Of a stretch of 46,445 nucleotides of DNA, positions 4,662-46,302 are shown in pieces. Under the pieces are notes generated by a model. That model saw only the letters and a list, made by a program, of their open reading frames with translations. It was not told where the DNA came from and made no database searches. The stretch comes from Patescibacteria group bacterium (GTDB taxonomy: Bacteria; Patescibacteriota; Minisyncoccia; Phycocordibacterales; Phycocordibacteraceae), in contig JAGWYL010000005.1 of the NCBI GenBank assembly GCA_018969385.1, forward strand, positions 1-46,445. Reading direction: 5' to 3'. Within the stretch, counting starts at the first letter, position 1, and each line of letters opens with the position of its first letter. Made by a program: the position numbers and the translations under genes.

Positions 4662-5900
4662 TTATACCGCTTCCGCTTCCTTTTCAATTTCCAAGAGACG
4701 CTCATACTTTTCGAGTCGCTGTTTCTGTCCCAAGCCGCCCGCTTTGATGCCCTCTGCGCCGACGCCATAGGCGAAGTCGGCGATGAAGGTGTCGTCGGTT
4801 TCGCCCGAACGGTGCGAGCAGATGGCCGCCCAGCCGGCCGCGTGCGTAGCCTCGACCGCTTCGATGGCTTCTTTCACGGAGCCTATCTGGTTCGGCTTTA
4901 TGAGCACCGCGCTTATCGCCTCCTCGCGCGCCGCATGCGCGATGCGCGCGGGATTCGTCACGGTGAAGTCATCGCCGACGACGAGGCATGTGCCGCGAAG
5001 CGCCGCGGTGAGTCTCGCGAAGTCCGCACCCGCGTCTTCGGAGAACGGGTCTTCGATGCTGTGGAAAGGGAAGCGGCTCGCAAGGTCTTCGTAGAGCCTC
5101 ATAAGCGCGTCCGGCGCGTACGTTTCTGCAAGAAGCCGGTAGGCCCCTTCGCTTAGCAGCTCGTTCGCCGCAGCGTCGATGGCGATGGACGTACCCGCGT
5201 GCTCGGCAACGAGCGCGGCAAGAAGCTCGAAGGGCTCCTGAAGCGTCTCGAACGTCGGCGAATAGCCGCCCTCCTCGCCCATCGGCACGTTCCCGAGCGT
5301 GGCGCCGAGCGCGTCGAACGCCGCGCGAGCGGCGGCGAACGCAGCGCTCGTCCTGCCTTCGCACACGAGGATGTATTCCTGGAAGGGGAGGCGGAAATCC
5401 GCATGCACGCCGCCGTTCATCACGTTCACGTAGAGCCGCGGCGCACCGGGCGTCGTTCCCGCGCGCTCGGCAATCGCCTTCCAGAGCGGCACGTTTGCTT
5501 CTTGCGCGAACAAGCGCTGCGCGGCGATGGAGACCGCAAGAATCGCGTTCGCCCCGAGGCGCGATTTATTCGGCGTCCCGTCGAGTGCAATGAGTGCACC
5601 GTCGATTTCGTCAGGCGAATTCCACTTGCGCGCGCAAAGCGCGCGCGCTATCTCGCCCTCCACGTTCGCCACCGCCGTCTCGACGCCGCCATCCGCGTCG
5701 CGCAGTTCGCACGCTTCATGACTCCCCGTACTCTTCCCGCTCGGCACGCTCGCGTGGGTGGACACCGGGTGTCCACCCACTTCGCTTGCCGTCGCCTCCT
5801 TGTGCATACCTGGTATGCACAAGGCGTGGAGCGTCACCTCCACCGTCGGCTTCCCCCGCGTGTCGGGAATTGCCCTCGCCTCAACACGTTCGATTTTCAT
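4662..5900 (-). CDS. eno: Enolase with unusual N-terminal insertion
   Basis: TRGKPTVEV, VPSGKSTGSHEA, NVMNGG, SIEDPFSEDA, VGDDFTVTNP, LIKPNQIGS, SHRSGETDDTFIADF, GLGQKQRLEKYERLL. Confidence 0.95.
   Translation of the reverse strand: MKIERVEARAIPDTRGKPTVEVTLHALCIPGMHKEATASEVGGHPVSTHASVPSGKSTGSHEACELRDADGGVETAVANVEGEIARALCARKWNSPDEIDGALIALDGTPNKSRLGANAILAVSIAAQRLFAQEANVPLWKAIAERAGTTPGAPRLYVNVMNGGVHADFRLPFQEYILVCEGRTSAAFAAARAAFDALGATLGNVPMGEEGGYSPTFETLQEPFELLAALVAEHAGTSIAIDAAANELLSEGAYRLLAETYAPDALMRLYEDLASRFPFHSIEDPFSEDAGADFARLTAALRGTCLVVGDDFTVTNPARIAHAAREEAISAVLIKPNQIGSVKEAIEAVEATHAAGWAAICSHRSGETDDTFIADFAYGVGAEGIKAGGLGQKQRLEKYERLLEIEKEAEAV
5754..5780. repeat. 27-nt perfect palindrome (13+1+13) inside eno
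   Basis: gtgggtggacacc-g-ggtgtccacccac. Confidence 0.9.
5798..5824. repeat. 27-nt perfect palindrome (13+1+13) inside eno
   Basis: ccttgtgcatacc-t-ggtatgcacaagg. Confidence 0.9.
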
Positions 5901-5954
5901 ATATTTCCGATTATATACTCTACAAAACGATCACTTACAGCAACCTCAACTCAT

Positions 5955-5975
5955 TGCCGACACTAAGTGTCGGCA
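5955..5975. repeat. REP-like palindrome copy 1
   Basis: tgccgacact-a-agtgtcggca, identical to copies at 6707 and 6777. Confidence 0.95.
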
Positions 5976-5993
5976 AATCAACCAGACCAGGCA

Positions 5994-6683
5994 TCATAGG
6001 TCGTAGTCTTCAAGGGCTTCGAGTCTGCGGAGCAGCGTTTCGCGGGCGAATTCTTTGAAATGCTCTTGCTCGTCGAATAGTTCTCCAAGGAGTTCCCTGT
6101 CCAAGATCGGCGACACGTCTTTGGGGTTATCGTAATGCCGCAAGCTGGTAAACGGGTTGCGGAGCGCTTCTGCGTATGCCGTATCGAACTCTTGGCAAGC
6201 ACGAGCGAGCCCGCCCGGGTACAGCTCGAACGGATTCTTGACCATGATGTATACGGCAAGATTCTTGAAGTCGGCTTCGTCGGTGATGAGACGAGATTTG
6301 TAGGTCCCCTCGAAGAGGCTCCCGCTCTCGTCGTATTTCTTATTGATGAACTTCGAATACGCCATCGAGATGCGGTGCATGAACCGTGCGATACCGCCTT
6401 CCGTAGTCTCTTTCAGGAACAGATGAATGTGATTGGGCATGAACGTGTGGGCGAGAACGGAAACGATTGGTGCCCGCTCGGGCCATGACGAAGGCCACGC
6501 AAGAGCGTTCATGTCCTCAACGTCGCGCGTCCAGTGGTTCGGCAGCGGCTGGTCATGGTTAAGATAGAAGAGGAGCGCGCGCAATCGCTCAAAATCTCGT
6601 TCGTTGCGGTAAATCGGCATCTTCTTCGTGCCGCGATTGCAGACGTGCACATACGTATCCAGACCGGTTTCGCGATACGCCAT
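5994..6683 (-). mobile_element. RAYT / Y1-type (TnpA_REP, HUH) transposase
   Basis: HVCNRGTKKMPIYRNERDFERL..FMPNHIHLFLKE (HUH)..MAYSKFINKKYDESGSLFEGTYKSRLI..NLAVYIMVKNP; flanked by palindromes. Confidence 0.9.
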
Positions 6684-6727: not shown

Positions 6728-6776
6728 AGTGGCAACAGCGCGGAATCAGCTAAAGGGGATGGAGCGCGGGGTGTGT

Positions 6777-6797
6777 TGCCGACACTAAGTGTCGGCA
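6777..6797. repeat. REP-like palindrome copy 3
   Basis: tgccgacactaagtgtcggca. Confidence 0.95.
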
Positions 6798-6888
6798 ACA
6801 GCGAAGGTTGAGCGTGGGGGGGTAGAGCGCGCGGGTGTTTAGTGCCCGCGCGTGTCCGGTATGCTCCTCGCCTCTGCCCGTTCGATTT

Positions 6889-7407
6889 TCATAGACTTCC
6901 TTGTTCTATCAATTCGTTAATATACGGAACAAAGTGCCCTTGGTATCTATCCTGCACTTCTTTGAGTTTCCAGTCGTTGCCGGTAATGGTGTGCCGGCAA
7001 AGAGGAGAACCACACCGGCAAGGCTCGTCCATTACCCAATTCTCGTCTATCGACCACGTCGCATAGTCGGCAGTTATTTCTTCGCCCGGAGCGATGTCTC
7101 GACGAGCAACAAGAGTGACTTCATCTGTGAGCCATGTGTTTGGGTCGCAGGAATGATTAAGGTAAATATCATCAGAGTACGGCTCGTCTAGTTTGCTCCC
7201 GAGCCAGTGATGCGCATCGAGTCTTGACGCCGTGTACTTCTTAATGAGCCCCGCTGCTTTTTCTTCTTCAGTAAACACAGTACCGCCCCATACGCTTACC
7301 GTCTCTCCTTTCCCTATGGGAGCCGTCGCAAACATGCCGCGCCCTTTACCGGAGTCTCGCACCTCTATGCGCGGATCAATCCAGGATTCTTTTTTGTACT
7401 CTTTCAT
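6889..7407 (-). CDS. SET domain protein (putative protein-lysine methyltransferase)
   Basis: GKGRGMFATAPIGKGE, YLNHSCDPNTW, RRDIAPGEEITADYATW, post-SET CRCGSPLCRHTI. Confidence 0.9.
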   Translation of the reverse strand: MKEYKKESWIDPRIEVRDSGKGRGMFATAPIGKGETVSVWGGTVFTEEEKAAGLIKKYTASRLDAHHWLGSKLDEPYSDDIYLNHSCDPNTWLTDEVTLVARRDIAPGEEITADYATWSIDENWVMDEPCRCGSPLCRHTITGNDWKLKEVQDRYQGHFVPYINELIEQGSL

Positions 7408-7423
7408 TAGATTGCGTCTATAT

Positions 7424-9847
7424 CTATCGACCCAGTTTCTCCTCGATTTCGGCGACGTGCTCGATGGTCTTCAGGACGGAGTCGGGGTTGAGGGACATGC
7501 TTTCGATGCCTTCCTCGACGAGGAATTCCGCGAAATCGGGGAGGTCGGAGGGGCCTTGGCCGCAGATGCCGAGGTATTTCCCGCGGGCCTTGCACGTGCG
7601 GACGACTTTCGATATGAGCGCGCGGACCGCCTCGTCGTTCTCGTTCGAAATGTGGCTCACGATGCCCGAGTCGCGGTCGAGCCCGAGCGTGAGCTGCGTG
7701 AGGTCGTTAGAGCCGATACTCATGCCGTCGAAACGGTCGAGGAACTCTTCGGCCAGGAGCACGTTCGAGGGAATCTCGCACATCACGTACACCGGCGTCG
7801 TCTTCTGGCCGTCCTTCGCGAGCGATTTCGCGACCAGTCCGTTCTCGGCCATGATGGCGAGCACCGCGTCCGCTTCCTTGGTCGTGCGGCAGAAGGGAAT
7901 CATCGGGATGACGTTCGCAAGCCCCATCTCGTCCCGCACGCGCGCGATGGCGCGGCACTCGAGCTCGAACGCGCCCTTGAATTTCGGATCGTAGTAGCGG
8001 CTCGCTCCGCGCCAGCCGAGCATCGGATTCTCTTCGGAAGGCTCGTACGCTTCGCCGCCGAGCAGGGTGGAGTATTCGTTCGTCTTGAAGTCGGAGAAGC
8101 GCACGATGACGGGGCGCGGCGAGAACGCCGCGCCTATCTTCCCGATGCCGTACGCGAGGTTGTCGACGTAGAACGCTATCGGGTCCGTCCAGCCGGCCAT
8201 CTTCTCCGCGATGGCGGCTTTCACCTTCGCCGGCTGCTTCTTCAGGTTGAGGAGCGCGAGCGGATGCACGCCGATTCCGGAAGCGATGATGAACTCTTCG
8301 CGCGCGAGCCCTACGCCCGCAACGGGCAAGAACGAATCCTCGAACGCGATGTCCGGCGACGCGATATTCACCATGATGTGCGTCTTCGTCTCGGGAAGCT
8401 TCCCGATGTCGTGCTCGTACCGCTCTATCTTCTTCGGATGCCCCTGCGTCACGATGCCCGCGCTTCCCGTCGTATCCACGGTGATTTCCATGCCGGACTT
8501 GAGCGCTTTCGTGGCGTTACCCGAGCCGACTATCGCCGGAAGCCCGAGCTCGCGCGAGACGATGGCCGCATGGGAGGTGCGTCCGCCCTTGTCGGTGACG
8601 ATGGCCGAAGCCATCTTCATGATGGGTTCCCAGTCCGGGTCCGTCATCGTGGTGACGAGCACCTCGCCTTTCTTGAACTCCTTTATCTGCTTGGGCGAGA
8701 GGATGATGTGCGCCTTGCCCGTCGCCACCTTGGAGCCCACCGAGATGCCGCGCACGAGTTCGCGCCCCGCGCCCTTTACCGCGTACTCCACTATCTTCGA
8801 GAAGTCGCGTCCGGCCTGTACCGTCTCCGGCCGCGCCTGCACGAGGAAGAGCTCTCCCGAGATGCCGTCCTTGGCCCATTCCATGTCCATCGGCGTCCAC
8901 TTCTTCGCGCATTCCGAATAGTGCTCTTCCACCGTCTTGCCCCAGGACGCCATCGTGACTATCTCTTCGTCCGAAAGCACGAATCGCCTCGTGTCCGCTT
9001 CAGGCGTCGGGACCACCTTGGTCTGTTCGACCGCATCGCGTCCCGTCGCGTATATCATCTTCTTCCTGTTCGTGCCTATTTTCTTCCAGATGATGGGGGA
9101 CTTCACCTTCCCGATCCTCGACTTCGAGACCAGGTACTCGTCCGGCGTGACGTGTCCCTGCACGATCATCTCGCCGAGGCCGTACGTGGCGTTCACCACG
9201 ACGACATCCTTGAAGCCGTTTTCGGTGTCGACGGTGAACATGACGCCGGACGCGCCCTTATCCGAACGCACCATCTTCTGCACCCCGACGGAGAGCGCGA
9301 CTTTCATGTGGTCGAAGCCCCGGTCCGCGCGATACGAGATGGCGCGGTCCGTGAAGAGCGAAGCCATGGTCCACACGGCGGCGCGCACGACGTCTCTGCC
9401 GCCGCGGATGTTGAGGTACGTCTCCTGTTCGCCCGCGAAAGAAGCGCCCGGAAGGTCTTCCGCGGTCGCGGAGGAGCGCACCGCGACATCCGTGTCCTTC
9501 CCGTACAGCTTTTCCATGCGCGCGTACGCGTCGGTTATCTTCTTTTCGAGGTCCTTCGGCAGCGGCGTCGCGCGCATCTTCTCGCGGATGAGCTTTCCCG
9601 AGCGGGAGAGCTCCTTGAGGTCCTTGGTGTCGAGCCCCTTGAGCGTCCGTTCTATGAAAACGTCGAGGCCGGTCTCTTCGAGATAGTGGAAATACGCGGC
9701 TGCCGTGACGGCGAAGCCGTGGGGGATGCGCACGCCTTTCGGCTCCACGGCGCGGATGAGTTCTCCGAGGGACGCGTTCTTGCCGCCAACCTGCGGCACG
9801 TTGTCCATGCTGATTTCGTCAAACCAAAGGATGAATTTCGATTCCAT
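7424..9847 (-). CDS. ppsA: Phosphoenolpyruvate synthase
   Basis: FDEISMDNVPQVGGKNASLGEL, VRSSATAEDLPGASFAGEQETYLN, VTDKGGRTSHAAIVSRELGLPAIVG. Confidence 0.95.
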   Translation of the reverse strand: MESKFILWFDEISMDNVPQVGGKNASLGELIRAVEPKGVRIPHGFAVTAAAYFHYLEETGLDVFIERTLKGLDTKDLKELSRSGKLIREKMRATPLPKDLEKKITDAYARMEKLYGKDTDVAVRSSATAEDLPGASFAGEQETYLNIRGGRDVVRAAVWTMASLFTDRAISYRADRGFDHMKVALSVGVQKMVRSDKGASGVMFTVDTENGFKDVVVVNATYGLGEMIVQGHVTPDEYLVSKSRIGKVKSPIIWKKIGTNRKKMIYATGRDAVEQTKVVPTPEADTRRFVLSDEEIVTMASWGKTVEEHYSECAKKWTPMDMEWAKDGISGELFLVQARPETVQAGRDFSKIVEYAVKGAGRELVRGISVGSKVATGKAHIILSPKQIKEFKKGEVLVTTMTDPDWEPIMKMASAIVTDKGGRTSHAAIVSRELGLPAIVGSGNATKALKSGMEITVDTTGSAGIVTQGHPKKIERYEHDIGKLPETKTHIMVNIASPDIAFEDSFLPVAGVGLAREEFIIASGIGVHPLALLNLKKQPAKVKAAIAEKMAGWTDPIAFYVDNLAYGIGKIGAAFSPRPVIVRFSDFKTNEYSTLLGGEAYEPSEENPMLGWRGASRYYDPKFKGAFELECRAIARVRDEMGLANVIPMIPFCRTTKEADAVLAIMAENGLVAKSLAKDGQKTTPVYVMCEIPSNVLLAEEFLDRFDGMSIGSNDLTQLTLGLDRDSGIVSHISNENDEAVRALISKVVRTCKARGKYLGICGQGPSDLPDFAEFLVEEGIESMSLNPDSVLKTIEHVAEIEEKLGR

Positions 9848-9857
9848 GAAAGATCTC

Positions 9858-11150
9858 TTAGCTCTTAAGCGCGATGATGAGGTCGGAAACGTTCGAACCG
9901 GTATAGCCGGTTTCGAGAAAATCGCCCGTCTCACTGAAGAAAGTATAACTCTCATGCGCCGAAAGGGAGTCGGCTATGGAGAGGTTCCGTTCCTTCGCGT
10001 GCGCGAGCGTCGCCACATCCGCGATGGCGCCCGCATGGTCCGTGTTGTCGCGTCCGTCGGACGCGAACGGGAGCACCAGCTCATCCTCGCGGACGTTCGC
10101 GAGGGCGCCAAGCGCGAGTTCCTGGTTGCGGCCGCCCTTGCCCGCGGCGCCGGCAATCTTCACGGTGCTCTCGCCGGCGTAGAGAAGCGCGGTCTTCGCC
10201 TCTGCCGCATGAAGCGCTTCCGCGATGCGTTCGCCTACGTCGCGCGCTTCGCCCGCGATGCGGTCGCCCGCGACATCCGCGCGGTAGCCGCGCCGTGCCG
10301 CTTCCGCGCGCATCGCGGCGAGCGCGTCGCCGTTCCCGAGGAAGAGCACGTTCGAGACGCGCGCGAAGTACTTCGGGTCCTTCGGCGTCTCGATGAACGC
10401 CGTGTCGGGGGGCGCGGCGATGCCGTAGCGCGCGAGCACCGCCTTCGCTTCGTCGACGGTCGAGGTGTCGCATGCCGTGGGACCCGAGGCGATGAACTCG
10501 ATATCGTTCCCCGGCACGTCGGAGACGATGAGCGAGACGACCTCCGCCGGATACGCGGCGGCGGCAAGGCCGCCGCCGCGCGCCTTCGAGATGTGCTTGC
10601 GCACGGTATTGAGTTCCTCGATGGTCGCGCCCTTGTCCGTGAGCTCGTCAAAGAGCGTCCGTTCGTCCGCACAGGTCATGGCCGCGTCCGGAAGGCAGAG
10701 CAGGGTGGAGCCGCCGCCCGAGATGAGCATGAGGACGAGGTCGTCCTCGCGGCACTCGGAGAGGAAGGCGACGATGCGTCCGCTCGCGCGCACGTTCGTC
10801 TCCGACGGTTCCGGATGCGTCCCGATGAGCACCTCCGTCTTCGTGAGCCCGCGCGCTTCGATGTCGGACACGTCGAACGCGATTCCCGCCGTAAGCCGTT
10901 CGCCAAGCAGCGTCTCGACGGCGCACGCGCCCGCGACCGCGCACTTGCCGATGCCGACGAAGAAGATGCGCCGGCCGCTTATCGGCCGGCGCAGTTCGCC
11001 CGCGACCAGTTCGCCGCCTTCGATGCGCATCTTGGCGAGCACGGCGCCGTGCGTGTTTACCGCGGCGTACGCGGCCTCGGCGATGGCGAGCGCATCCTCG
11101 CGCGGGCGCGTGACGGCGAGCGCGCCGCTGTTCCTGATGATGTCCGCCAT
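9858..11150 (-). CDS. Glycerate 2-kinase (DUF4147/MOFRL family)
   Basis: VGIGKCAVAG, LISGGGSTLLCLP, LNTVRKHISKARGG, SDVPGND, GKGGRNQELAL, FASDGRDNTDHAGA. Confidence 0.9.
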   Translation of the reverse strand: MADIIRNSGALAVTRPREDALAIAEAAYAAVNTHGAVLAKMRIEGGELVAGELRRPISGRRIFFVGIGKCAVAGACAVETLLGERLTAGIAFDVSDIEARGLTKTEVLIGTHPEPSETNVRASGRIVAFLSECREDDLVLMLISGGGSTLLCLPDAAMTCADERTLFDELTDKGATIEELNTVRKHISKARGGGLAAAAYPAEVVSLIVSDVPGNDIEFIASGPTACDTSTVDEAKAVLARYGIAAPPDTAFIETPKDPKYFARVSNVLFLGNGDALAAMRAEAARRGYRADVAGDRIAGEARDVGERIAEALHAAEAKTALLYAGESTVKIAGAAGKGGRNQELALGALANVREDELVLPFASDGRDNTDHAGAIADVATLAHAKERNLSIADSLSAHESYTFFSETGDFLETGYTGSNVSDLIIALKS

Positions 11151-26989: not shown

Positions 26990-27030
26990 CGTGCGCGAAA
27001 CGCTCGGGGAACGGCCCCGCAACACCAACA

Positions 27031-27068
27031 CAAAATGTTACTATATATGCATATATAGTAACATTTTG
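27031..27068. repeat. ATAT palindrome family, copy 1
   Basis: caaaatgttactatatatgcatatatagtaacattttg. Confidence 0.95.
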
Positions 27069-27099
27069 CGACGAGCGCGAACGTGCTAGCATCGTTCGC

Positions 27100-27727: not shown

Positions 27728-27787
27728 CCCTGCAAATGCAAAACGTTACTATATATGTATATATAGTAACGTTTTGCATTTGCAGGG
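27728..27787. repeat. ATAT palindrome family, copy 2
   Basis: ccctgcaaatgcaaaacgttactatatat-gt-atatatagtaacgttttgcatttgcaggg. Confidence 0.95.
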
Positions 27788-36196: not shown

Positions 36197-36250
36197 CGCA
36201 AAGGCAAAATGTTACCATATATACATATATGGTAACATTTTGCCTTTGCG
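36197..36250. repeat. ATAT palindrome family, copy 3
   Basis: cgcaaaggcaaaatgttaccatatat-ac-atatatggtaacattttgcctttgcg. Confidence 0.95.
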
Positions 36251-36935: not shown

Positions 36936-36968
36936 GTAAAACTAGGACATCGGATGTCCTAGTTTTAC
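36936..36968. repeat. 33-nt perfect palindrome (16+1+16)
   Basis: gtaaaactaggacatc-g-gatgtcctagttttac. Confidence 0.95.
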
Positions 36969-46013: not shown

Positions 46014-46139
46014 GTTACCCGCGGAGAGTCTCGAAAGGGTGCCAGGTTCGAATTCGATATGCCTCCTAATCCGCGCGAGCCATCGCCAAATACGTACCCG
46101 ATACGAATCAAAAAGTAAGCAGAAACTGCAAGAGCCGCA

Positions 46140-46185
46140 GAACCGAATTGTTACTATATATACATATATAGTAACAATTCGGTTC
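46140..46185. repeat. ATAT palindrome family, copy 4
   Basis: gaaccgaattgttactatatat-ac-atatatagtaacaattcggttc. Confidence 0.95.
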
Positions 46186-46302
46186 GGGACGGTTGCTTCG
46201 GGAGAGTTCGGACGCATTGCGCCTCTGAAGTTTTGGAAGGGGGAAGGAAATTGTTCCCATCCGCTCTGGCGAAAGCTCAAGTGCGCTATCATGCATTTAG
46301 CA

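Follow-up and report, generated by a model that had tools for sequence, protein, structure and literature searches.

Palindromes of probable RAYT-linked REP type in frame in the enolase gene of a Kaiserbacteria genome

RESULTS

Two palindromes at one turn of enolase

In a Ca. Kaiserbacteria (Patescibacteria) genome, the gene for enolase carries two different perfect palindromes at a beta-hairpin turn, and these are very probably REPs of the RAYT type that were inserted in frame. The gene lies in a stretch of 46,445 nucleotides, hereafter the window, which is contig C29 of the MAG G000 (757,562 bases, 92.6% complete). G000 was sampled via 20 genome stretches and pattern searches, the latter being run over 92 genomes (designated by G-numbers) with reversed-pattern controls. 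The enolase features are as follows.

4662-5900, minus strand: enolase (eno), 412 aa, identified by its open reading frame, Pfam Enolase_N and Enolase_C, phmmer matches to 4g7f and yeast enolase, an AlphaFold model and a Foldseek match to E. coli enolase 1e9i
5754-5780, no strand: palindrome 1, GTGGGTGGACACCGGGTGTCCACCCAC, assigned to the REP of GTGGACACCSGGTGTCCAC type; encodes VGGHPVSTH; arms reach 4 bp past the 19-nt core
5781-5797, no strand: 17-nt spacer separating both palindromes
5798-5824, no strand: palindrome 2, CCTTGTGCATACCTGGTATGCACAAGG, assigned to the REP of TGTGCATACCWGGTATGCACA type; encodes ALCIPGMHK including edge codons; arms reach 3 bp past the 21-nt core

Both palindromes are 27 nt long, perfect and odd (13+1+13), and their sequences, positions and 17-nt separation agree with an earlier note made from the DNA alone. 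By chance, the whole window should hold about 0.0007 perfect odd palindromes with arms of 13 bp. Folding of the pair as single-stranded DNA is far stronger than that of shuffles (z -7.1), each palindrome being predicted to form a hairpin. Neither of the two carries a GTAG or CGTC tag.

Of 30 enolases from the genus, 26 have an 8-residue segment leading from the TVEV strand to ASVPSGKSTG. Its length is 25 residues in the window, 21 in both G107 and G026, and 12 in G108. The window enolase thus shows a net gain of 17 codons at the turn, and this gain of 51 nt requires an insertion. The extra segment described earlier is therefore real and in frame when aligned with the enolases of relatives (of congeners without the insert, the nearest are only about 72% identical), but it amounts to 17 residues rather than 25, since most congeners already have 8. 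The accompanying idea that nine codons per palindrome keep the frame had to be abandoned: two times 27 nt gives 54 against the 51 gained, and codon alignment is found for the palindrome at 5754-5780 only, not for that at 5798-5824.

In an AlphaFold model of the window enolase (mean pLDDT 93.9), the insert falls between strands 18-28 and 44-51, in the surface loop anticipated for an in-frame mobile palindrome, pLDDT dropping under 50 for residues 33-41 alone, and Foldseek matches the model to the E. coli structure in the PDB. The reading frame is kept with the palindromes in place, and the fold is preserved in the predicted structure. What we take to be the catalytic motifs of enolase (SGKST, HADF..PFQE, IAIDAA, SIEDPF, GDD, IKPNQ, SHRSGET and IKAGG) appear intact by eye, and the enzyme presumably still functions with its insert.

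Most congeners are devoid of the window's palindromes, and in others the same turn is taken up by unrelated ones; inverted pairs of a single REP are present in the enolases of G107 and G026. This distribution bears on the possibility that the hairpins are retained for a role, whether in adjusting the stability or translation of enolase mRNA or as a site for protein binding or termination. Such a role would suit the strong predicted hairpins and the known capacity of REPs to take part in mRNA decay and in termination (PMC3733652), but we regard it as unlikely given the absence of the palindromes from most congeners and the unrelated palindromes in the same loop, which suggest a tolerant site rather than a conserved signal. 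Sequences at this turn in G012 and G097 were also considered as insertions and dropped, being length-neutral (8 residues). At another position, the enolase loop preceding VGDD, an insert of the CTCGAC...CTCGGGG type, quasi-palindromic and read as PST.LGA or FSTPLGA, was seen in four genomes (L033, L011, L040 and L045).

A resident RAYT with a REP of its own

The neighborhood of the enolase gene contains the following features.

5954-5976, no strand: the resident RAYT's REP (TTGCCGACACTAAGTGTCGGCAA), located between that gene and enolase
5994-6683, minus strand: RAYT-like Y1 transposase, 229 aa, HUH motif NHIH, start codon inferred; Pfam PF01797 and, below cut-off, NCBIfam NF047646
6707-6727, no strand: REP of the resident RAYT, upstream copy
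6774-6800, no strand: REP of the resident RAYT, second upstream copy
7424-9955, minus strand: PEP synthase (ppsA, named by eye)

The presence of a RAYT gene beside enolase was borne out, inasmuch as the 5994-6683 product is RAYT-like: it passes the Pfam Y1_Tnp cut-off (2.3e-7) as the sole Y1_Tnp match in G000, and its sole NCBIfam match, to the REP-associated tyrosine transposase family, reaches 29.8 bits against a cut-off of 80, so the equivalog cut-off is not passed. The gene is flanked by three copies of one palindrome, TGCCGACACTAAGTGTCGGCA, which is unlike either enolase palindrome. In most congeners ppsA and eno are adjacent, the end of ppsA lying within about 45 bases upstream of eno's conserved DTRG motif in most of those examined, whereas in the window about 1.5 kb, including the RAYT unit and a SET-like ORF, separates them. 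This ORF (6889-7407, 172 aa, between ppsA and RAYT) is SET-domain-like by eye, with a weak NCBIfam match below cut-off.

The enolase cores adjoin RAYT genes in other genomes

The 19-nt core of palindrome 2, GTGCATACCWGGTATGCAC (GTGCATACC type), occurs in exact copies on both sides of a Y1_Tnp (RAYT) gene in G064, and the core of palindrome 1 (GTGGACACC type) adjoins a Y1_Tnp (RAYT) gene in G086, with one exact and one single-mismatch copy, both on the same side. Reversed-pattern controls for both cores gave zero matches in the 92 genomes. Among 15 other RAYTs of the genus, the closest relatives of the window RAYT are those of G086 (53% identity) and G064 (38%), the remaining 13 being at most 31% identical. 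More generally, RAYT identity follows REP sequence, seven RAYTs with CAAGGTTNNACCTTG being 57-77% identical and three with CATCSGATG 57-70%. It is mainly because RAYT and palindrome sequences co-vary that we call the enolase palindromes REPs of RAYTs. Since the two REPs of the window pair differ from each other, the pair is not a REPIN.

Set against the usual marks of REPs, the enolase cores depart in several ways. Instead of many copies per genome, each has a single copy in G000, although they are dispersed over congeners with up to 4 per genome; instead of being mainly extragenic, both palindromes are intragenic; and they lie beside RAYT genes in congeners, not in G000. The exact 27-mers have no second copy anywhere in G000, so the check proposed earlier, a search for them in its other genes, came out negative. 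This negative result does not sink the idea of a mobile element, because the palindrome family is visible only in congeners. The cognate RAYTs of both palindromes were likewise found only in other MAGs, that of G000 being 92.6% complete. The most likely source of both enolase REPs is RAYTs of the resident RAYT's clade, since lost from G000 or never fixed in it.

REPs in other genes of the genus

Other REP families are more abundant than the enolase type, with 7-8 copies in G000 and 24 in G012. Exact copies of the REP CAAGGTTCGACCTTG number 24 in G012, 17 in G109, 12 in G107 and 11 in G095, and the control pattern gave none. Genes of G012 that hold this REP in frame encode peptide deformylase, DnaG, TsaD, TopA (two places), UvrB, a UvrC-like protein, a MutY-like glycosylase and a class-I tRNA synthetase read as TyrS. 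Of the copies examined in that genome, about half or more fall in recognizable genes. The inserts in TsaD, UvrB and deformylase are evident against solved homologues, and UvrB of G012 holds an inverted pair of one REP. In RAYT genes of the CAAGGTT type (L124, L134, L135 and L171), the gene's own REP lies within the coding sequence, in frame where translated. For the gene at L130, an identity as ComFC, recognized by eye, was set aside, there being no Pfam match.

In G000, seven exact copies of the REP core GGACATCSGATGTCC are present, apart from the related enolase copy. Three of them, of the REP CTAGGACATCSGATGTCCTAG, are in frame in the genes for TrmD, TGT and an alpha/beta hydrolase. The RAYTs for the GGACATCSGATGTCC REP were located in G101 and G062, though G000 shows just one Y1_Tnp match. 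The window itself contains a member of the family.

36936-36968, no strand: REP CTAGGACATCGGATGTCCTAG, with 6-bp copy-specific arms, outside recognized genes; same family as the in-frame TrmD and TGT copies of G000

No conserved GTAG or CGTC tag was found beside the 24 G012 and 7 G000 copies of these two other REP families. Compared with nearly all congeners shown, the TrmD segment of G000 has 21 extra nt, exactly the length of the REP core. Across enolase, TrmD and UvrB, counting inserts of at least 4 residues each, 18 of 47 were palindromic compared with 12 of 470 control windows from the same genes (Fisher p = 2.5e-13, an optimistic value because some inserts are shared by descent). One UvrB loop alone holds palindromic or REP-like inserts in seven genomes.

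Some REP-like sequences apparently add no length and encode native-like residues, namely those at L141 (ligA, G064), L148 (G107), L142 (ThrRS, G072) and L129 (an exonuclease-type gene, G012). Such length-neutral stretches may reflect replacement, the origin of a REP, or chance. The matches in ligA (G064 and G107) and ThrRS (G072), which we presume to encode residues resembling native LigA and ThrRS sequence, were not counted as insertions, chance or replacement being possible. A loss of the TGT zinc site through its REP was considered and rejected, as the TGT enzymes sampled from the genus (L264-L290) likewise have no CxCxxC motif at the REP position.

A second palindrome family, GTTACTATATATRYATATATAGTAAC, was observed in the window at 27029-27070, 27728-27787, 36197-36250 and 46138-46187, with copy-specific symmetric arms of up to 17 bp; a 380-kb sample holds at least 14 of them, of which some lie at contig ends. 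Several contigs of the G000 MAG start or end with 38-nt perfect palindromes (L052, L054, L057, L059, L061, L068, L069 and L070), which suggests that the assembly broke at palindromic repeats.

Symmetric arms differ from copy to copy

REP copies share a common core and have symmetric arms that differ between copies. For the seven CTAGGACATCSGATGTCCTAG copies, the mean arm extension is 7.3 bp, compared with 0.37 bp at random positions. Around the 21-nt TrmD insert, the right flank resembles the genus consensus, while the left flank departs from it and equals the reverse complement of the right flank. Template switching at quasipalindromes is known in E. coli (PMC7202029) and, in the few cases at hand, would yield symmetric arms with no change in length. 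Alternatively, symmetric arms may stem from insertion into native near-palindromes, with which the TGT of G027 is compatible. On pre-existing palindromes as the sole cause the evidence is divided: TrmD speaks against them, and the TGT of that one relative fits. Somewhat doubtfully, we propose that a palindrome may creep outward after insertion, template switching recoding native flanks as the reverse complement of the opposite flank at constant length, so that a REP would remodel the protein beyond its insert, and that in some genes (enolase, in G012 and G097) native codons have given way to a REP with zero net insertion.

These arms are also pertinent to the view that the enolase palindromes arose in situ, by replication template switching or inverted duplication, and that their RAYT-linked matches are incidental. 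The single copy of each exact 27-mer in G000 agrees with it, and the copy-specific symmetric arms imply that local perfecting of arms probably happens in this genome. Yet the 19-21-nt cores match RAYT-linked REPs of other genomes with zero control matches, the added length of 51 nt calls for an insertion, and the TrmD insert has the length of a REP core, all of which makes a purely local origin improbable.

DISCUSSION

Inserted RAYT-type REPs account best for the enolase palindromes. Non-autonomous REPs would be mobilized by domesticated transposases, the RAYTs (TnpA-REP-like, HUH/Y1), which would nick the hairpin and move it as single-stranded DNA, leading to in-frame insertion at a tolerant beta-hairpin turn of enolase. 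Purifying selection would then retain just the frame-preserving, stop-free copies in loops, and template switching at the hairpin could perfect the arms into native flanking codons.

The earlier note had likened the palindromes to Rickettsia palindromic elements (RPEs). The likeness holds in that both are palindromic DNA lying in frame in housekeeping genes, presumably as mobile elements, but it is one of analogy only, as REP-type cores adjoin RAYT genes in congeners. RPEs of the first report are about 150 bp long and form several families (PMC10969869; Ogata 2000 and 2002, as reviewed there and in PMC3733652), and the short repeats of R. conorii are CGTC-tagged and have no dedicated transposase (PMC3733652), RPE-4 and RPE-6 carrying the tag. 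The window elements, in contrast, are 27 nt long and free of the CGTC tag, with RAYT-linked cores, and on size and tag we reject homology to RPEs as scarcely credible. An ordinary lineage-specific loop that is palindromic by chance, though loop length varies among enolases generally, counts as refuted by the expectation of 0.0007 per palindrome per window, the REP matches of the cores and the repeated presence of palindromic inserts at this turn among congeners.

Taken together, these results describe a genus of Patescibacteria with numerous families of RAYTs, each paired with a palindrome of its own, and these palindromes lie in frame in essential genes of genomes below 1 Mb. Coding palindromes, a curiosity ever since they were described in Rickettsia, are thereby tied to a testable enzyme, whereas the CGTC-type Rickettsia repeats are without a dedicated transposase. 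The process offers a route for proteins to gain surface loops, and alignments can address how often and where insertions survive. It is a caution, too, for genome annotation and structural biology, as an odd loop in a Patescibacteria protein may be mobile DNA.

Relation to known systems

REPs inside ORFs were reported in several phyla by Di Nocera et al. 2013 (PMC3733652), many of them in repair genes, single or as dimers, along with RAYTs flanked by REPs. That study describes GTAG repeats with RAYTs (REPtrons), for example in Opitutus terrae uvrA and DNA ligase, intragenic REPs in uvrA, uvrB, ligase and tRNA synthetases, and an orthologous pair of recB genes hit at about the same site. The elements described here share with those the short palindromes, single or as inverted dimers, in ORFs of repair and tRNA genes and the RAYTs flanked by their own REPs; they differ in being untagged (no GTAG or CGTC) and perfect, with copy-specific extended arms, in belonging to Patescibacteria, a phylum unnamed in that study, and in the single UvrB loop with inserts in seven genomes. 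Our literature search, whose coverage of subscription papers was incomplete, found no such report for Patescibacteria.

REPINs (Bertels and Rainey 2011, PMC3116915) resemble the inverted single-REP pairs in enolase of G107 and G026 and in UvrB of G012 in their short spacer and RAYT linkage, but the window pair is made of two different REPs and the pairs of the genus lie in coding sequence. TIRtrons and TIRYTs (PMC3733652, PMC6006769), in which terminal inverted repeats flank a RAYT-like gene, are similar in that such a gene is flanked by palindromic repeats with no relation to GTAG REPs. The coding palindromes of Nematomorpha mitochondria (PMC6649704) are likewise perfect inverted repeats in coding DNA, with arms possibly kept identical via template switching, but these are far longer (up to 284 bp), mitochondrial and without a transposase. 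Intragenic REPs as such were thus already known; what is new here is the occurrence of untagged perfect palindromes in another phylum and at recurrent hot-spot loops, together with copy-specific symmetric arms, which suggest growth into native codons by template switching.
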